A stretch of DNA of 60,216 nucleotides from a virus: the IMG/VR virus record IMGVR_UViG_3300026077_000003, positions 1 to 60,216 of that record. One strand, given 5' to 3'. Both the position numbers and the translations under genes were made by a program. The notes below the pieces were generated by a model. That model searched no databases. It had not been told where the DNA came from and worked only from the letters and a program-made list of their open reading frames with translations. This document shows positions 48,566-57,693 of this stretch, piece after piece. The number at the start of each line of letters is the position of its first letter. Position 1 is the first letter of the stretch.

Positions 48566-49076
48566 TACACTACCAGAACCTATAGTTAATCAACTAGAAG
48601 GTCTTACTAAGAACCCACGGTTCCCATGGTATTGGTTAGATGATACTACATACATGACATCAGACCATGATGGTTTAAAGGCACATTCATTCTCTCATCA
48701 ATTAATAGATGAGTATGAACCTGTTAGTGAACAGACAGGACTATTTGAGAGTGCATTGCATTGCATTGCAGATAAATGTGATGCAAGAGTATCAGACATA
48801 TATCGTGTACGATTAGGATTGTGCTATCCTGATGGTATGCTACATCATGCACCACATACAGATTATGATTTCGATCATACTACTGCATTATATTATGTTA
48901 ACGAAGCAGATGGTGACACATTCTTCTTTGATAATGATAATAATATTATTCATAGAGAGACACCACTCAAAGGTAAGATGATAGTATTTGATGGTAAAGA
49001 TATACATGCTTCATCATCACCTACACAGGGTATTAGGATTGCAATGAATGTCAATTTTAAACTACGAATTTCTTGA
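48549..49076 (+). CDS. 2OG-Fe(II) oxygenase, P4H-like, copy 1
   Basis: This is 175 residues from the ATG at 48549, which has an AGGAG ribosome site 5 nt upstream. It shows the classical HxD...H...R set: H103-T-D105 in HAPHTDYDFDHTTALYYVNE, GKMIVFDGKDIHASSSP (H153) and GIRIAMNVNF (R163). It overlaps the second JmjC/cupin gene by 29 nt. It resembles the gene at 49945 in plan and sequence (FPWYW/FPWFM, YYVNExDG). Confidence 0.87.
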   Translation: MKSVFDTLPEPIVNQLEGLTKNPRFPWYWLDDTTYMTSDHDGLKAHSFSHQLIDEYEPVSEQTGLFESALHCIADKCDARVSDIYRVRLGLCYPDGMLHHAPHTDYDFDHTTALYYVNEADGDTFFFDNDNNIIHRETPLKGKMIVFDGKDIHASSSPTQGIRIAMNVNFKLRIS

Positions 49077-49749
49077 CCCTGAGGTCTACAAATATAATGA
49101 TGAACCTAGAGTATGGCACAATGCTGTAGGGCAGATCGTTACATGGGAGGATGCAGAAAATGCCCTAAATGCCCCATGGAATTACATCACTACAGTATTA
49201 GGTGATGATGGTAAGAGACTAGATTTAGAGACAGTAGAGGAACCATGGTTCTTTAAAGGTATATACAAGAAGAGAGATCTATTTCAGTACGCAAAGGATG
49301 GATGGACAGTAAATATATCACAGTATGGTCATGGTAATGATAGGGTAGAAGAACTATTAACTGAGTTAGAGAATAGATTTGATGGGTGTGCTGACTGTGG
49401 TATCTTTATGAACTTGGGTACGAGACCAGAAGCGAGATCCTTTCATCCACATTGGGATCATGGTCCAACATATATTATGCAGATGGATGGTGAGACTAGA
49501 TGGGTAGTGTATGAGAATAGAGTATCAGCATTGATACCTAGTACAGAGGAGAATCCTTATGTACCAAGTCAGGAAGAACTGACAATACAACTAGACACTG
49601 TACTTACAGCAGGAGATGTACTATACTTACCCCAGAGGAAATTCCACAAAGCATATCCATCTAAAAAGAGACTCTCATTATCAGTACCAATTTGGTGTCC
49701 AAAGAGGTGTGAGTGCAGTGATCGGAATTCGTATCGTTTAAATCTCTAA
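49048..49749 (+). CDS. JmjC/cupin-4-like hydroxylase, copy 2
   Basis: This 233-residue paralog of the 47861 gene shares the opening (FLDPEVYKYNDEPRVWHNAV versus FLNPSVFQTNDKPRVWEGVL). It also shares FHPHWDHGPTYIMQMDGETR (H135, D137), TAGDVLYLPQRKFHKAYPSK (H200) and RLSLSVP. Both also share the ISQYGHGND/IEQYGHYNK element. It overlaps the upstream oxygenase gene. The duplication of the cupin plus 2OG pair is discussed under findings. Confidence 0.8.
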   Translation: MSILNYEFLDPEVYKYNDEPRVWHNAVGQIVTWEDAENALNAPWNYITTVLGDDGKRLDLETVEEPWFFKGIYKKRDLFQYAKDGWTVNISQYGHGNDRVEELLTELENRFDGCADCGIFMNLGTRPEARSFHPHWDHGPTYIMQMDGETRWVVYENRVSALIPSTEENPYVPSQEELTIQLDTVLTAGDVLYLPQRKFHKAYPSKKRLSLSVPIWCPKRCECSDRNSYRLNL

Positions 49750-49778
49750 ATACTATTAACGTCACTTGTGGGGGAAAC

Positions 49779-49961
49779 ATGACATCAATAGCAGTAGAGT
49801 GTTTAACTCTACAGCAGAAGCATAAAGAAACATTAACTAAGGCACTTTTCCTATTACAGAAAGAGTGGTATAATAAACTGGGTCAACTACCAGATGAACA
49901 ACGTGAATTGATTGATGAAATTGCGTCCGCCTTACATCTCAAGCATGAGAATAGAGGATAA
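49779..49961 (+). CDS. Small helical protein, unknown
   Basis: This 60-residue all-helical protein contains a KHKETLTKALFLLQKEWYNK helix. A GGGGG ribosome site precedes it, and a CTAAATAC box at 49746 lies upstream. It overlaps the next oxygenase by 17 nt. No family is recognised. Confidence 0.55.
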   Translation: MTSIAVECLTLQQKHKETLTKALFLLQKEWYNKLGQLPDEQRELIDEIASALHLKHENRG

Positions 49962-50436
49962 CTTCCTCGCTCAAGATAAATGGAAAGAACTCCATGATTA
50001 TATGACATCATGGGAGTTTCCATGGTTTATGCAAACAACATTAACTCATGGTAATGATGACTTAGAAGCGTTTGGATTTAACCATTGGTTAACTGCTGAG
50101 GAACACCCATTATTTGCTCACCTTGTCACCGAGATGCAATCTGCCCTATCTGCCCGTAATGTGTTACGGGTACGAGCAGACATGACATTACTTAATCCTA
50201 ATAAGTATAGACATGGATGGCATACTGACAGTAAGGAGGAGCATACAGTCTGCATATATTATGTAAATGAAAGTGATGGTAATACATTACTTAAGGATCC
50301 AGTTGAGGGTCATGGTTATATGCAAGTAGAACCAAAAGCGAACAGACTATTGGTATTTGATGGCAGTATAGAACATACTGGTCACTCACCAAGTGAACAC
50401 AAACAGAGGATTTTAATCAATGCAAACTTCTGTTAA
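49945..50436 (+). CDS. 2OG-Fe(II) oxygenase, P4H-like, copy 2
   Basis: This is 163 residues from the ATG at 49945, chosen to match the N-terminal length of its paralog at 48549; an ATG at 49915 is also in frame. The core has H93-T-D95 in GWHTDSKEEHTVCIYYVNES, NRLLVFDGSIEHTGHSP (H144) and QRILINANF (R155). It is a probable tandem-duplication product with the 48549 gene. Confidence 0.85.
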   Translation: MRIEDNFLAQDKWKELHDYMTSWEFPWFMQTTLTHGNDDLEAFGFNHWLTAEEHPLFAHLVTEMQSALSARNVLRVRADMTLLNPNKYRHGWHTDSKEEHTVCIYYVNESDGNTLLKDPVEGHGYMQVEPKANRLLVFDGSIEHTGHSPSEHKQRILINANFC

Positions 50437-51025
50437 ACCTGAGATTCTCCCACTATTCTCATCACCAGTATATGTGTGTGAGGATAAGACTATGCCTAAT
50501 GTCATTAGTGCTATTGAGGGATGGGAGTATCATAAAGCACCCCAACAAGGTAGTCAGACATTCGAAATGAATGTTTTAACTAAACTACCTGCACTTAGGG
50601 AGTGGTTAAACTTTCATGTAGAAGAATATGTATGGAATGTGTTAGGAATTGATAGAAGATGCCATGAAATAGTATATACTTGCTCATGGATTAACAGACA
50701 CAAATTCCAAGAGAAAACACATGAACATTCCCACCGTAACAGCATGTATAGTGGGATTTGTTATTTACAAACACATGAAAGATGTGGTGATCTGGTCTTT
50801 AGGGATCAATCATATAATATGGTATCACCACGCATAGTTCATGGTAACCTATACAATAGTAAGCAATGGACAATACAACCTAAGGATGGCATGGTGGTGA
50901 TGTTCCCTAGTTCTATGGTGCATCTAGTCACACCTAACCAGATAATGCGAGAGAGATACTCACTAGCATTTAATATCTTTCTTAAGGGTGATTTTGGTAA
51001 CCCTACTTCATTCTTAAAATTATGA
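50420..51025 (+). CDS. 2OG-Fe(II) oxygenase (TIGR02466 type)
   Basis: This is a 201-residue protein. The opening is LPLFSSPVYVCEDK. The core has KTHEHSHRNSMYSGICYLQT (H101/H103/H105), DGMVVMFPSSMVHLVTP (H168) and RERYSLAFN (R179). It overlaps both neighbours. The substrate is unknown. Confidence 0.86.
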   Translation: MQTSVKPEILPLFSSPVYVCEDKTMPNVISAIEGWEYHKAPQQGSQTFEMNVLTKLPALREWLNFHVEEYVWNVLGIDRRCHEIVYTCSWINRHKFQEKTHEHSHRNSMYSGICYLQTHERCGDLVFRDQSYNMVSPRIVHGNLYNSKQWTIQPKDGMVVMFPSSMVHLVTPNQIMRERYSLAFNIFLKGDFGNPTSFLKL

Positions 51026-51369
51026 GTACACCTATTTTTCTATCGGAGTCTGTAAGATTGGAACTAAGAAACATACTCAAGTCACTTGAGGTTGGAATGA
51101 GAGTCAGGACACCTGACAATGAGGATGGTTACATAGACTTCATTTGTGACCAATATATTACTGTAGTCACCCATGAGTGGGAGGATAAGGATAAATTAAA
51201 TGGTAAGAGACAAGTCAAGGTGTTGGTATATGCTGCTGACTGGGAGAATATGTACTTAGAGGACACCCACTTCTATAATAAAAAGAATTATACAGGATAT
51301 ATTCGTGAACATCCTGGAAATGAGGATTTGCCAAAAGACATTACTGGCAAGGATCCAGAGAATAAATAA
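51022..51369 (+). CDS. Conserved-type phage protein, unknown
   Basis: This 115-residue protein has an alpha/beta look and a central beta-rich part (GYIDFICDQYITVVTHEW, KRQVKVLVYAADWENMYLED) like a small SH3- or KOW-type barrel. The polar C-terminal tail is Asp/Lys/Pro-rich. It overlaps the previous gene by ATGA. No family is recognised. Confidence 0.58.
   Translation: MSTPIFLSESVRLELRNILKSLEVGMRVRTPDNEDGYIDFICDQYITVVTHEWEDKDKLNGKRQVKVLVYAADWENMYLEDTHFYNKKNYTGYIREHPGNEDLPKDITGKDPENK
51361..51368 (+). promoter_or_regulatory. Late-promoter-like box AATAAATA
   Basis: AATAAATA is one mismatch from TATAAATA. It lies 22 nt before a 54-codon gene and overlaps the previous stop. Confidence 0.5.
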
Positions 51370-51389
51370 TTACTTAATAAGGGACTATT

Positions 51390-51554
51390 ATGTGGAACAT
51401 CAATTTAAAACCTGTTTGCAAGTTCGCTACTAAGGTTAAGGAGTGGGATAAGGCACTAGCAAAGAAGATACAAGACAAGTATAACTTGACTGACTATCAG
51501 ATGTTATGCCTAGCATTTGGTAAGGGATTTATTATTGGTGCTATACTATTATGA
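51390..51554 (+). CDS. Small protein with hydrophobic C-terminus, unknown
   Basis: This 54-codon ORF has a basic N-terminal half (CKFATKVKEWDKALAKKIQD) and a short hydrophobic tail (GFIIGAILL) that could anchor in a membrane. It overlaps the next gene by ATGA. No family is recognised. Confidence 0.5.
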   Translation: MWNINLKPVCKFATKVKEWDKALAKKIQDKYNLTDYQMLCLAFGKGFIIGAILL

Positions 51555-51739
51555 TGCAATTTAATGAGAAGGACGTTAACCGCATGATTAGAGCATGTGA
51601 GTACTATGAGCATTGGGTATGTGGCAATCATCCTACTGGTTATATGAAGGAAGAATACAGTCACCTACTAAAGAAACTACATAACTATGAGTCTGAAATA
51701 GATTGTCCAGATTGCAAGTGCTGTGCGATCCACTCATAG
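51551..51739 (+). CDS. Small Cys-rich protein, unknown
   Basis: This 62-residue protein has a His/Glu/Cys-containing middle (CEYYEHWVCGNHPTGYM) and a C-terminal CPDCKCC cluster that may bind zinc. It is the last gene before the structured RNA candidate. No family is recognised. Confidence 0.52.
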   Translation: MMQFNEKDVNRMIRACEYYEHWVCGNHPTGYMKEEYSHLLKKLHNYESEIDCPDCKCCAIHS

Positions 51740-51756
51740 AAGTGGCACACACCCTG

Positions 51757-51784
51757 TTGCAAGTGGTTGACTACATGGTATTCT
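51757..51784 (+). promoter_or_regulatory. Candidate promoter for structured RNA (TTGCAA-16-TATTCT)
   Basis: TTGCAA (51757-51762) lies 16 nt before TATTCT (51779-51784), which carries an extended TGG element. Both boxes are imperfect. The predicted start (about 51791) falls exactly on the GGGAAAC that begins the folded region. Confidence 0.4.
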
Positions 51785-51790
51785 ATTAAT

Positions 51791-51908
51791 GGGAAACAAA
51801 GCGGTTCCCCTCTAGTCCGACAAAGATGCCGATCCCATAAGCAACTCGGATCCCAGAAGCGGACACATGACCGAGGGGGTAAAATGCACAGACAGACCGT
51901 TTTTGTTT
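51791..51908 (+). ncRNA. Candidate structured RNA (about 115-120 nt)
   Basis: This is a non-coding gap between two short genes with nested complementarity. The outer 12-bp stem pairs 51794-51805 (AAACAAAGCGGT) with 51896-51908, with one bulged T. Inside, CCCCTC (51807-51812) pairs with GAGGGG (51873-51878) and GTCCG (51815-51819) with CGGAC (51860-51864). An inner hairpin forms through GATCC/GGATC or CCGA/TCGG. The right side ends in a T-rich run that can serve as a terminator. No tRNA cloverleaf fits and no known RNA family is recognised. Confidence 0.6.
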
Positions 51909-51936
51909 CTCTCGTCAATATCTGCCATTAAACTAA

Positions 51937-52203
51937 ATGCCAACTGCAACACCTCGCAAAAGAAGGACACGCAAGACAACACCTGCAAAACCTAAAGTCG
52001 AGGTCATTAAAGTGACAGAACCAAAAGCAACATCAGTGAGACCTAGCACTCTTCTCAAATCCACTGATTATATCAATGATATTAAAGTGAGACTTGAGAT
52101 TCATAATTACGAAGTAAATGCACTCGTAAATGATATTAAATGGGGTTACAGCAAAGTTAAAGACTATGTTGTCACCACATATAAGAAAGAGTTTGCTAAG
52201 TAA
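51937..52203 (+). CDS. Small basic protein, unknown
   Basis: This is an 88-residue protein. The first 35 residues are Lys/Arg/Pro/Thr-rich (TPRKRRTRKTTPAKPK) and probably bind nucleic acid. The rest (about 40-88) is a predicted helical pair. It follows the structured RNA by 28 nt and is followed by a terminator, so it may be the gene that RNA controls. No family is recognised. Confidence 0.55.
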   Translation: MPTATPRKRRTRKTTPAKPKVEVIKVTEPKATSVRPSTLLKSTDYINDIKVRLEIHNYEVNALVNDIKWGYSKVKDYVVTTYKKEFAK

Positions 52204-52224
52204 ACCACTATCCAAACTGTCCAC

Positions 52225-52248
52225 AAGCACCCAATAAGGGTGCTTTTT
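52225..52248 (+). terminator. Rho-independent terminator
   Basis: An 8-bp stem AAGCACCC/GGGTGCTT with loop AATAA is followed by TTT. It closes the transcript of the small basic protein. Confidence 0.9.
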
Positions 52249-52253
52249 ATTTG

Positions 52254-52259
52254 TATAAT
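52254..52259 (+). promoter_or_regulatory. -10 box TATAAT upstream of helicase
   Basis: A perfect TATAAT lies just after the terminator and 42 nt upstream of the helicase start. No clear -35 is seen, so the activity is uncertain. Its place right after a terminator makes it the likely promoter of the next operon. Confidence 0.45.
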
Positions 52260-52301
52260 GTATAGGTAGGCAAGTCCTACACAAATCTTATTATTGATTA
52301 A

Positions 52302-53498
52302 GTGACCAATTCTTTGAGACCACATCAAGAGCGAGCATTGGAAGCAATGACTACGCAAGATAAAGGTCAAATCATAGTGCCTACTGGTGGAGGCAAAACA
52401 TTTATAATGATACAGGATACTATCAACCAGTTCCAAAGTAGTATCCCTAAAACTATTGTAGTAGTAGCACCTCGCATATTATTATCTCAACAGTTATGTG
52501 CTGATTTTATGTCACATATAGATGCTGATGTGTTACATGTACATAGTGGCAAGAGTAAATATCTTAATACTACAAAACCTGAGGAGATTATACAATGGGT
52601 TGATGATAGTGTTAAGCATAGAATAATATTCACAACATATCATTCACTTCATAGAATAGTGACTGATGTTGATACAATATATTTTGATGAAGCACACAAT
52701 AGTGTAGCAAGATCATTCTTTAATGCAACTCAGTATTTCGCTAATAAGAATGTATCTAATCGCTGCTACTACATGACAGCGACACCTAGGGTGTCTAGGA
52801 AGCACGAGAGGGGCATGAATAATGCTGAGGTATATGGTAACATCATCTGTAATGTACAGGCAACAGAATTGATTGAGAGTGGAACTATACTACCACCTAC
52901 CATAGTACCATTTAATACTGAGAAACCTGCACAAGATAGTATAATAGACATTATTGATAATGCTTATGATGATGGTGTGCTTAAGGTATTAGTATCAGTA
53001 CCTAGTTCTAAAGTATTAGGTAAGATGTTGGGTCAATCATCATTGTTAGAGGAATTAAAAGAGAGAGACATTAATGTATTACATGTAACAAGTAAGTTTG
53101 GTGCATACGTTAATGATAAGAAAGTATCTCGTAACGAGTTCCTAACAACATTGCATGAGTGGTCAAAAGATGATACAATATCCTTTATATGCTTTCATTA
53201 TAGTATTCTTTCAGAGGGTATAAATGTAAGTGGATTGACTCATACTATTATGATGAGATATCTGTCAGTTGTAGAAATGGCACAAACCATAGGTAGAGTC
53301 ATTAGATTAGATGCTGACGATAGAGCAAGAATTAATAGTGGTGAGTTAGCACCTATGAATTGGTCACTATATAATAAACCAACAGGTTATGTTACAGTAC
53401 CAGTTCATCCTAAGACAAAGCACATAGTCAAGAGATTACAGAAAGTAGTTGATGCTATTTTTGTTGAGGGTAAACCACCAGTTTCATTAGTGAGTTAG
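52302..53498 (+). CDS. SF2 DEAH-type helicase
   Basis: This 398-residue, GTG-start protein has a complete set of superfamily 2 motifs. The Q-motif-like RPHQERALEA is followed by Walker A PTGGGKT (27-33), DEAH (129-132), MTATPR (motif III region, about 158), and a C-terminal RecA domain with FHYSILSEGINVSGLTHTIM and VVEMAQTIGRVIRLD (motifs V and VI). It lacks extra N- or C-terminal domains and resembles the ResIII/UvsW class of phage helicases. It is followed within 2 nt by an oxygenase. It may act in recombination, replication restart or with the nuclease-like gene at 54943. Confidence 0.88.
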   Translation: MTNSLRPHQERALEAMTTQDKGQIIVPTGGGKTFIMIQDTINQFQSSIPKTIVVVAPRILLSQQLCADFMSHIDADVLHVHSGKSKYLNTTKPEEIIQWVDDSVKHRIIFTTYHSLHRIVTDVDTIYFDEAHNSVARSFFNATQYFANKNVSNRCYYMTATPRVSRKHERGMNNAEVYGNIICNVQATELIESGTILPPTIVPFNTEKPAQDSIIDIIDNAYDDGVLKVLVSVPSSKVLGKMLGQSSLLEELKERDINVLHVTSKFGAYVNDKKVSRNEFLTTLHEWSKDDTISFICFHYSILSEGINVSGLTHTIMMRYLSVVEMAQTIGRVIRLDADDRARINSGELAPMNWSLYNKPTGYVTVPVHPKTKHIVKRLQKVVDAIFVEGKPPVSLVS

Positions 53499-53499
53499 T

Positions 53500-54135
53500 A
53501 TGGGAGACATTAAGGCACTATTTCCAGGATTTTATTATCATGGTGAAGTGCCTAGTCACGAATACCTTAAGAAACTATTTCTTAGTGAATTAAGTGATGC
53601 ACAATTAAATAGTCCATCTGATTGGAATTGTAAACTATCATCTAGTTTTGATAGTAGCACAAATCTAACAGACTTTTCATGGAATGTATTTGAGAAGGCA
53701 ATACAAGATAATATAATGAATATGCACATGAAATTAGGTGGTAAACCTGAGCATAGAATAGTTATGTTTGAGTCATGGATAAATGTATATAATCAGGGAG
53801 ATATGCAAGATGTACATACTCACTCAGGTGGGGATGATTGTACATTTAGTTGTGCATATTTTCTTGACTATATACCTGAGGAGGATGCTAATTTTATATT
53901 TTATTATCCCGATCAGAATATACATATAGGGAACTTCAGTAAGTATTATCCAGTTAATACAACTTGGTTCCCTGAGGTTAAAGAAGGGGATATAATTATA
54001 TTCCCTGCTTATCAACATCATCAAGTGAGTATGCAACAATCTAAACACAAACGTATCACAATATCTGCTAACTTTAAAGTTAGAGGTGATGATTACACAC
54101 CAACACAAAATGAATTAGTGAGGGAATTAGCATGA
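53500..54135 (+). CDS. 2OG-Fe(II) oxygenase (TIGR02466 type)
   Basis: This 211-residue protein has an ESWINVYNQGDMQDVHTHSG core (H106, H108), then EGDIIIFPAYQHHQVSM (H173 or H174) and KRITISANF (R185). The opening (LFPGFYYHGEVP) is the family type. It lies 1 nt after the helicase stop and overlaps the next gene by ATGA. Confidence 0.86.
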   Translation: MGDIKALFPGFYYHGEVPSHEYLKKLFLSELSDAQLNSPSDWNCKLSSSFDSSTNLTDFSWNVFEKAIQDNIMNMHMKLGGKPEHRIVMFESWINVYNQGDMQDVHTHSGGDDCTFSCAYFLDYIPEEDANFIFYYPDQNIHIGNFSKYYPVNTTWFPEVKEGDIIIFPAYQHHQVSMQQSKHKRITISANFKVRGDDYTPTQNELVRELA

Positions 54136-54698
54136 CATATAATATAGAAGGTGTCAACGTAATTGATGGATACTTTCCTGATTGGATTGTAGATGATGTT
54201 GCCAACTGGTTAACAGATTATTGTCCTATGTACTATAATAACGCACCTTATGGTGATGCTAGTAGTAGTAGATTTTGGGGTAATACTGTTATTAGAAATG
54301 ATGATTTTACAGATACATCACCATACTATTGGTTCTTTAGTTACCTATGTGAATGTGTAAAGAAAGATATATGCAAAGATAAACCCATATCACATATTCA
54401 TAGGTTATTAGTTAATGCTCAATCACCTGATATGCAAAGTGAATTCCATGATGATAGGCACATACCTGCAACAAGTGTTATATATCACGCATTTGGTGAA
54501 AGTGGTGATACTGAATTCGCTAGTGGTGATAGGGTTAGATTTAGACAAGGTAGATTAATAGTATTTGATAGTAAGATCAAGCACAAGGGGAATCCACCTT
54601 ATGTGCATGATAAAATGAGAATATCATTAGGAGTAATTGCAGATCATGTACCTAAGGACAGTTCTGCAACTATCACACAACAGGGAGTAATTTTCTAA
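54132..54698 (+). CDS. 2OG-Fe(II) oxygenase, P4H-like
   Basis: This is a 188-residue protein. The HxD pair is H106-D-D108 in QSEFHDDRHIPATSVIYHAF, followed by GRLIVFDSKIKHKGNPP (H151) and MRISLGV (R163). The FHDD and IxHKGNxP layout is typical of P4H-like phage oxygenases. The substrate is unknown. Confidence 0.85.
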   Translation: MTYNIEGVNVIDGYFPDWIVDDVANWLTDYCPMYYNNAPYGDASSSRFWGNTVIRNDDFTDTSPYYWFFSYLCECVKKDICKDKPISHIHRLLVNAQSPDMQSEFHDDRHIPATSVIYHAFGESGDTEFASGDRVRFRQGRLIVFDSKIKHKGNPPYVHDKMRISLGVIADHVPKDSSATITQQGVIF

Positions 54699-56091: not shown

Positions 56092-56660
56092 TGAGGAATA
56101 CATACGATTTATTCCCTATTAAATACCACCATGTACACATCCGTAACCATTCGGATGTGTTTGGTAAATTATATGATAGTGCTAAACATTTATTAAACTC
56201 ATCTAAAGGTAAATGGAATTGTGATACACAAACCACATTCTTTGATGAAAATGATATTGTAGCACCTGATGAATTAGGTGAAATGTTATCACCTTACCTA
56301 TATCAATATTTTCCACCTGAGGTGAATATTAATATAGTTAACAGTTGGATAAATGTATATGATAAAGGTAATTGGCAAGAACCACATCATCACATAGTAT
56401 TTCCTGAGTTCATCAATTTTAGTGGTGTGATATTCATTAACTATGATCCTGAGAATGATGCTAAATTCTATTTTGAGAATATGAACTTAGATCATACTAT
56501 CTCAGGTTACACCCATATAATGAAACAAGATCCAATTTTAGAACCACCAGTACGTCAGGGTGATATGATAGTATTTCCATCATTCATACGTCATGGAGTA
56601 CACCTACAAAAGAATGATTCTAAGCGAACCACATTATCATTTAATTTGGACGTTAGGTAG
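56091..56660 (+). CDS. 2OG-Fe(II) oxygenase (TIGR02466 type)
   Basis: This is a 189-residue protein. It opens with LFPIKYHHVHI. The core has NSWINVYDKGNWQEPHHHIV (H99-H101 as candidate ligands), NFSGVIFINYDP, QGDMIVFPSFIRHGVHLQ (H168) and KRTTLSFNLDV (R179). It is coupled to the nuclease-like gene by a 1-nt overlap and is the last oxygenase of the island. Confidence 0.85.
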   Translation: MRNTYDLFPIKYHHVHIRNHSDVFGKLYDSAKHLLNSSKGKWNCDTQTTFFDENDIVAPDELGEMLSPYLYQYFPPEVNINIVNSWINVYDKGNWQEPHHHIVFPEFINFSGVIFINYDPENDAKFYFENMNLDHTISGYTHIMKQDPILEPPVRQGDMIVFPSFIRHGVHLQKNDSKRTTLSFNLDVR

Positions 56661-56710
56661 GACACTTAATGAACCTGCACATCACATGATGAATTACCAT
56701 GGTGATGTAC

Positions 56711-56716
56711 TATAAT
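56711..56716 (+). promoter_or_regulatory. -10 box TATAAT at start of early small-gene cluster
   Basis: TATAAT lies 25 nt upstream of the next ATG. An imperfect hairpin (ATCACATG with CATGGTGAT, one bulge, 56681-56706) covers the -35 area and might be an operator. No good -35 is seen. Confidence 0.4.
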
Positions 56717-56741
56717 TAGTATGTAAACAAGAGAACAACTC

Positions 56742-56927
56742 ATGGACAGACAACCACTAATCGATTCTATGGGTGATGCACTTCTCAAATCTATCACTAA
56801 GTCTGTATCAAATGATGAGTTAGAAAATGCTCATGCACTTTATACTGAATGGGTAGTTGATGGTGTTGATCCTGAGGATAATGATTATGAGTTCCTATTA
56901 TTAAATGATCTCTCAGAAATCCAATGA
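56742..56927 (+). CDS. Small acidic protein, unknown
   Basis: This 61-residue acidic protein has an N-terminal helix (GDALLKSITKSVSNDELENA) and an acidic tail. It is the first of a chain of small genes and overlaps the next by ATGA. No family is recognised. Confidence 0.5.
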   Translation: MDRQPLIDSMGDALLKSITKSVSNDELENAHALYTEWVVDGVDPEDNDYEFLLLNDLSEIQ

Positions 56928-57187
56928 TCTCAATGAAAACAATCAACACATCAGATTTATGCAGAGACACAATGAGACAATGTGTCAAGGATTCTGATTT
57001 TTTATCATCCATTGTAGGTGAGTACATCCAACTACTCAACAATGAACAGAGAGCAACCCTAAGAGAGTCTCTCAACTATGCTCAAGAAGAAGTATTAGTT
57101 GATGATAAGGGTTATGTATCATCACATACAGAATTAATTGATGACTCTACATACAAACAACAATTCTATGGAGGTACAGCAGACTAA
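56924..57187 (+). CDS. Small helical protein, unknown
   Basis: This is 87 residues (or 84 from an ATG at 56933). A helical middle (SSIVGEYIQLLNNEQRATLR) precedes a polar tail. It is coupled by ATGA upstream and by a 1-nt overlap downstream. No family is recognised. Confidence 0.5.
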   Translation: MISMKTINTSDLCRDTMRQCVKDSDFLSSIVGEYIQLLNNEQRATLRESLNYAQEEVLVDDKGYVSSHTELIDDSTYKQQFYGGTAD

Positions 57188-57681: not shown

Positions 57682-57693
57682 TTAGTGTCACAT

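Follow-up and report, generated by a model that had tools for sequence, protein, structure and literature searches.

What kind of RNA, if any, is encoded in the short gap upstream of the gene at 51937 of the IMG/VR virus record IMGVR_UViG_3300026077_000003, whose full 60,216 bases are the window analysed here? From positions 51757-51936, the original prediction proposed a non-coding RNA that is structured and driven by a promoter of its own, being either a free small RNA or a leader that controls the basic protein encoded at 51937. Over 49-54.7 kb of the window, the nearest named relative is P-RSM6 (81.5% identity over 91%), a T4-like (Kyanoviridae) cyanophage of Prochlorococcus. Genes around the element in 49048-54698 are related to, or in P-RSM6 annotated as, 2OG-Fe(II) oxygenase or DNA endonuclease V.

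The element, called M1 here, occupies 51791-51911 of the + strand (121 bases) and folds into one nested hairpin consisting of helices P1, P2 and P3 and an inner hairpin K. The outer helix P1, seen in both the fold and the covariation, pairs 51791-51804 (GGGAAACAAAGCGG) with 51897-51911 (CCGUUUUUGUUUCUC); it has 11 pairs between 51791-51801 and 51901-51911 and 3 more between 51802-51804 and 51897-51899, with U51900 bulged. P2 is a helix of 7 pairs between UCCCCUC (51806-51812) and GAGGGGG (51873-51879), while P3 has 5 pairs between GUCCG (51815-51819) and CGGAC (51860-51864). The apical loop starts with a conserved AC (51820-51821), invariant in all aligned relatives, and ends with AGAAG (51855-51859), conserved in the same alignment. 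Between them lies a 33-nt insert (51822-51854) that contains hairpin K (51825-51852, loop UCCCAUAAGCAAC, bulged G51828). Two further unpaired segments are conserved among the relatives: ACAUGACC between P3 and P2 (51865-51872), with 4 positions invariant in A3, and, in part, UAAAAUGCAC at 51880-51889 (consensus UAAUGCAC). Altogether, P3 is surrounded by the invariant unpaired nucleotides AC, AGAAG, ACAUGAC and UAAU. The original prediction was therefore right about three nested helices with an inner hairpin, on which fold and covariation agree, and its CCCCTC/GAGGGG and GTCCG/CGGAC helices are part of P2 and the whole of P3, respectively. Its outer helix is present, but with 14 pairs and one bulge instead of 12 pairs, and the T-rich tail that it placed behind the element (51900-51908) belongs to the 3' side of P1, where it is paired, and does not mark a terminator.

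The minimum-energy fold of 51791-51911 is -36.3 kcal/mol compared with -28.3 +/- 3.6 for shuffled sequences (z -2.2 on the + strand), and 4 of 200 shuffles fold as well. The reverse strand gives z -0.9. For the whole 180-nt stretch 51757-51936 the comparison with shuffles, which the prediction had proposed as a check, yields a z of only -1.2, because unstructured flanks are included. Fold energy alone is only suggestive of the structure, and the helices are established by covariation rather than by energy. The covariance model R1 scores the element at 56 bits (E 1.3e-12).

Relatives were found by blastn against phage records (P-RSM6, P-SSM7, P-SSM2 and AG-345-L05), and further searches added S-SSM4, S-SSM6b and P-SSM5. 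A DNA pattern of the conserved core, written from the first blastn relatives, matched 53 viral contigs of IMG/VR, so that M1 recurs in these 53 contigs and in P-SSM7, P-SSM2, P-SSM5 and S-SSM4. The aligned copies share one order: P1; GGUUCC or GGUUUC leading into P2; CUA; P3; AC; the loop; AGAAG; the 3' strand of P3; ACAUGACC or ACAUUACC; the 3' strand of P2; UAA; and the 3' strand of P1. The same pattern gave a single match (L120) in 84,980 bacterial and archaeal genomes. A bacterial origin of M1 was rejected, since this match lacks P1 and everything else of the element and is attributed to chance.

For the core covariation, 13 distinct sequences were used with the loop inserts replaced by TT. 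In P2 and P3, 99.3% of the cells are standard pairs. Both sides are changed in 9 of the 12 pairs (5 of 7 in P2, 4 of 5 in P3). The covariation score is 0.578 compared with 0.168 +/- 0.031 for shuffled alignments, none of 500 shuffles reaches it, and slid structures score 0.05-0.20. P2 occurs as UCCCGAC/GUUGGGG, UUCUUUC/GAAAGAG, UCCCCUC/GAGGGGG, UACCGAC/GUUGGUG and others; P3 occurs as GACUG/CAGUC, GUCUG/CAGAC, GUCCG/CGGAC, CUCUG/CAGAG and CUAAG/CUUAG. P1 falls into classes such as GGGAAACAAA/UUUGUUUCUC, GGAAAACAAA/UUUGUUUUCC, GCGAAAACAA/UUGUUUUCGC and GUUgAGAGG/CCUCUAAC; across these classes 6 of the 8 outer pairs are double-changed when the bulged g of the last class is omitted by hand. The compensatory changes that had been named as support for the helices are thus present in both the core and the outer stem. 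Furthermore, G-U pairs are retained, one of them in 13/13 core sequences, and because they cannot pair on the opposite strand, the + strand is the RNA. At the level of sequence comparison, the covariation proves that the M1 helices are real and under selection as RNA.

The position of the element tells how this RNA is likely to be transcribed. In the window, a -35-like hexamer TTGCAA (51757-51762, +), which is weak here and stronger in relatives, is separated by 16 nt from a -10-like hexamer TATTCT (51779-51784, +), which predicts that transcription starts near 51791, where the pairing of P1 begins. This promoter has 8/12 matches to the consensus, and the promoter scanner gave no call at the pair. 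Among the distinct relatives, 28 of 31 have a -10 hexamer with 5 or 6 of 6 matches. Of the 31 distinct upstream sequences, 26 have a hexamer with at least 5/6 matches positioned 4-9 nt ahead of P1, compared with 9.6% of shuffles; in most copies the distance is 4-8 nt. With the -10 hexamer at a set distance, the transcript should begin at the first pair of P1, within the 5' stem. By consensus, the window's own copy of the predicted promoter is weak. Upstream of it, at 51742-51749 (+), is a DNA motif GTGGCACA of the TG(T/G)CACA type, which recurs upstream of early promoters; in P-SSM2, P-SSM7, P-RSM6 and the window it precedes many promoters of host-like type. In the more general form TG(T/G)C(C)ACA it occurs in the window at 51742-51749, 52217-52224 and 57685-57692, upstream of the -35 region and with or without an adjoining terminator, and is possibly a promoter-upstream DNA site.

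On the downstream side, the last pair of P1 is followed by a start codon after 18-29 nt where no extra modules are present (25 nt in the window) and after about 60-170 nt where further RNA modules intervene. In all 47 loci with a callable gene, the stretch from M1 to the following start codon is free of intrinsic terminators. The missing terminator and the short, regular spacing to the start codon argue for a 5' leader and against a free small RNA. As for what distinguishes the two, the element has a predicted promoter of its own and no terminator of its own before the next gene, and it combines a constant position from promoter to start codon on one strand with a covarying secondary structure. 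Of the two forms left open by the original prediction, the leader of the gene at 51937 agrees with these observations and the free RNA does not. We consider it very likely from these positions that M1 is a structured 5' leader.

Known RNA families do not account for it. Rfam 15 at curated thresholds gave 0 matches in the window; with the cutoff relaxed to E 10, the region 51700-52000 gave only narK (17.2 bits, threshold 43.2) and CRISPR-DR36 (12.3 bits). On related loci Rfam returned one tRNA and chance matches only, and neither M1 nor the tested modules had a match at a useful score. ARAGORN found 0 tRNA or tmRNA genes in the window, so the earlier statement that no tRNA or known family fits holds. 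A coding small ORF was ruled out because the insert lengths break every reading frame; an ATG within module M3 is in frame with the led gene in some loci only. Pairing of GGGGUAA in M1 with UUACCCC before the MATRSRIG genes was rejected, as UUACCCC is also found behind GAGUAA copies of M1. Likeness to hairpin or hammerhead ribozymes (AGAAG; GAAA..GUC in module M2) was discarded too, the required residues being absent in a by-hand comparison.

The most variable part of the element is its apical loop. Of the copies listed, 29 have 2 nt between AC and AGAAG and the rest have 33-80 nt, the lengths being 2, 33, 40, 41, 42, 48, 49, 51, 58, 60, 63, 73 and 80 nt. About 12 unrelated inserts were distinguished. 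Their ends are more often complementary than those of shuffled sequences (mean score 12.8 compared with 9.2 +/- 0.6, 0/500), so the inserts lengthen the hairpin. Three inserts, or clear relatives of them, are also found alone or in other frames, of which F2, F3 and F4 were identified by visual inspection. Module K, the insert of the window, has the form GAU-G-CCGA-UCCCAUAAGCAAC-UCGG-AUC, in which the 13-nt loop is invariant and 3 of 7 pairs are double-changed. It is present in at least 5 other leader types, one of them in a podovirus: in frame F2 (GGGCA..UGUAAG(A/U)CCC; L061-L063), in a plain stem ahead of the helicase gene (L064, L065), in F3 (L066), in F4 (L116-L119), and within a stem of podovirus P-SCSP-R27W (L005). 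Module M2 lies inside the M1 loop in L010, L015, L023, L053 and, with an altered yet paired hairpin, L068; behind M1 in L003, L004, L011, L020, L043, L054 and L058; in F4 in L046; and alone behind a promoter in L052. The third insert (L050) is also found behind M1 (L042) and behind F4 (L008, L031, L068). The frame itself is replaced in P-RSM6 and five close contigs, where the outer stem GGGAAAACAAAC../..GUUUUGUUUUCUC is kept with F3 inside instead of M1. Behind the short-P1 class is module M4, an H-type pseudoknot whose 14 pairs are all kept, with 3 double-changed in a small sample of 5 sequences.

Judged by sequence, then, the apical loop is an exchange site for RNA modules. A wider proposal, plausible though held at somewhat below even odds, is that leaders are combinatorial cassettes built from shared RNA domains and exchanged between phages including a podovirus, which would make the leader of an accessory gene reprogrammable. 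The stock would comprise the frames M1, F2, F3 and F4, the tips K and M2, and the pseudoknots M3 and M4, which may be nested in one another's apical loops or strung in series.

In the window, the gene led by M1 (51937-52203, +; MPTATPRKRRTRK...) encodes 88 aa and belongs to PHROG 27005, which is annotated as of unknown function; its protein had no Pfam or PADLOC match. It is followed by an intrinsic terminator (52225-52245, +) and then by a promoter with TATAAT at 52254-52259 and the helicase gene, so the transcription unit looks monocistronic. The terminator behind the led gene is seen in the window and in P-SSM7, and the promoter behind it in the window; other loci vary. Across all loci M1 leads at least 6 unrelated gene families, including a 144-aa MxTRSRIGL protein (24 loci), a basic MPTAT..RKRRTRK protein of the window type (9 loci), N6/N4 DNA methylases (4 loci) and several others. 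These accessory genes are almost all without functional annotation. The basic-protein gene is thus indeed led by M1, but control specific to this protein, as first suggested, is weakened by the same element standing before so many families. A methylase gene of one cluster adjoins the M1 unit in about half of the loci, upstream in 19 and downstream in 4.

M1 is also sparse. The covariance model of the core found single copies in P-SSM7, S-SSM4 and P-SSM2 and no match of note in P-RSM6. Leader regions of this kind number two in P-SSM2 (about 55.8-56.1 and 56.6-56.9 kb) and one each in P-SSM7 and P-RSM6. Its presence at every early promoter was ruled out, since it is single-copy and most other early promoters of P-SSM2 have unstructured leaders of about 25 nt. 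From the few copies and the short leaders elsewhere, we regard M1 as a special leader at a gene-exchange locus and not as a general feature of early mRNA.

What does such a leader do? Our preferred reading, with a probability of about 0.5, is that M1 forms the conserved, structured 5' leader of an mRNA transcribed early from an accessory gene of T4-like cyanophages, and that it acts in cis, probably by shielding the 5' end. Taken by itself, action in cis on the led gene is probable; shielding as the main mechanism is more doubtful and put forward tentatively. M1 would keep the mRNA 5' end base-paired and compact, which would slow attack by RNase E or RNase J during host takeover. RNase E cleavage is much slower on RNAs with a base-paired 5' end (PMC3997798), and infection by another cyanophage increases the RNase E of picocyanobacteria (PMC10989914). 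Since different genes stand behind the same leader, the effect of M1 is not tied to one product. On the other hand, one or two such leaders per genome argue against a general need for mRNA protection, and the invariant unpaired positions, superfluous for a plain shielding stem, suggest that M1 has a more specific partner, which might be a protein or ligand. These nucleotides and the modules would probably contribute protein-binding or tertiary contacts that tune the shielding.

The same aptamer-like nucleotides, together with the DNA methylase gene adjoining the unit in so many loci, could mean that M1 is a cis-regulatory switch whose core binds a protein of phage or host, or a small molecule, and so alters translation or decay of the led gene. 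Riboswitches would be one model and the T4 gene 32 leader, which uses a pseudoknot for translational control (PMC3014915), another. We consider a switch unlikely, as an expression platform is lacking (neither a terminator nor Shine-Dalgarno pairing), inspection across loci showed no retained alternative helix that involves the start region, the led genes are unrelated, and the core is unchanged when modules of 33-80 nt are swapped into the loop. The dozen or so loop inserts, some recurring exactly elsewhere, resemble a turnover of factors facing different hosts, and the modules, whether they stay on the leader or are set free from it, could serve as sponges or decoys for nucleases or RNA-binding proteins of the host, with an arms race behind their diversity. 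The lack of a terminator or processing site between element and gene, with a start codon always downstream, makes this rather improbable.

There is a very small chance that M1 is a put-type RNA for processive antitermination, taken up by RNA polymerase on its way out of the early promoter. M1 does lie directly at the early transcript start, as does HK022 putL (PMC9378689), but it is one nested hairpin with inserts instead of two adjacent stem-loops, and the terminator and new promoter directly after the window's led gene leave nothing obvious to read through to. The variable gene region with differing genes behind M1 would also suit selection mainly as DNA, namely a recombination joint for gene exchange like the PeSL motifs, which are reported to mediate gene shuffling (cited in PMC4503421). 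This is the least probable of the readings, because compensatory changes that include G-U pairs call for selection on pairing in the RNA, not on identity of the DNA. The preferred reading, a cis-acting leader that shields the 5' end, may be compared with several known systems.

The ompA-type protective 5' stem-loop likewise has a base-paired 5' end, which for M1 is predicted; the M1 core is much larger and conserved, with invariant unpaired bases. For the RNA motifs manA and wcaG we know of no proven function. Like M1, manA (RF01745) and wcaG (RF01761) are structured and occur in T4-like cyanophages and marine metagenomes at sites that may be 5' UTRs (PMC2864571), but M1 leads accessory genes instead of sugar or photosynthesis genes and its loop modules are exchangeable. 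The gene 32 leader of T4 is also a structured phage mRNA leader, and M4, which accompanies M1, is also a pseudoknot; the gene 32 element is dedicated to a single gene and that gene's product, whereas M1 is nested and leads several unrelated genes. PeSL promoter-terminator cassettes of T4-like phages were reportedly described by Arbiol in 2010 and Comeau in 2014. They share with M1 the setting of an intergenic terminator and early promoter in gene-shuffling regions, but consist of terminator and promoter, while M1 lies behind the promoter, within the transcript, and is conserved as RNA. HK022 put, too, is a phage RNA directly at an early promoter; its two stem-loops lie side by side and together span about 70 nt (PMC9378689), an architecture unlike that of M1, whose led unit in the window looks monocistronic.

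Leaders of phage mRNAs are commonly regarded as short stretches without notable features. Our literature searches found no cyanophage RNA of the M1 kind and no exchange of loop modules in such leaders, which does not prove their absence from the literature. M1 is a further cyanophage leader family, unmatched in Rfam 15, with loop-module exchange. An abundant marine virus group has a conserved RNA leader with a defined exchange site and identical domains in different frames, and if the modules act, phages could retune newly acquired host-takeover genes with promoter and protein unaltered. M1 is directly testable because the carrier isolates P-SSM2, P-SSM7 and S-SSM4 and their hosts are cultured.

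Several smaller observations were made at these loci. The basic led proteins of the window, L018 and L001 have a common N-terminus MPTATPRKRRTRKTTPAKPK and exchangeable C-termini, soluble-looking in the window and hydrophobic (FDFVVLPLIYLEAFVVNFL) in L018 and P-RSM6. In L067 (S-SSM4), positions 884-1009 behind M1 and beside tRNA-Val hold an unannotated, very basic 41-aa ORF (MRLKNHESPRKMGRNSRSKLASARLRQIKKRTKMQLKRLGA). A second, larger structured leader lies upstream of PSSM2_071 in L004 and in the P-SSM2 record (56626-56933), with F2-like parts, F4 with GGTTCAGGTGTAAGCGATTCCC and a GGTGAAGCACCTCTTGAGCA module; parts of it are also found in L008, L031, L068, L069 and L116-L119. At 66.4-66.6 kb of the P-SSM2 record both strands bear host-like promoters without a clear gene, a possible further non-coding transcript. 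Finally, the leader of the helicase gene in the window (52254-52284) opens with a short hairpin, GUAGG-CAAGU-CCUAC, which resembles an empty F2 frame.
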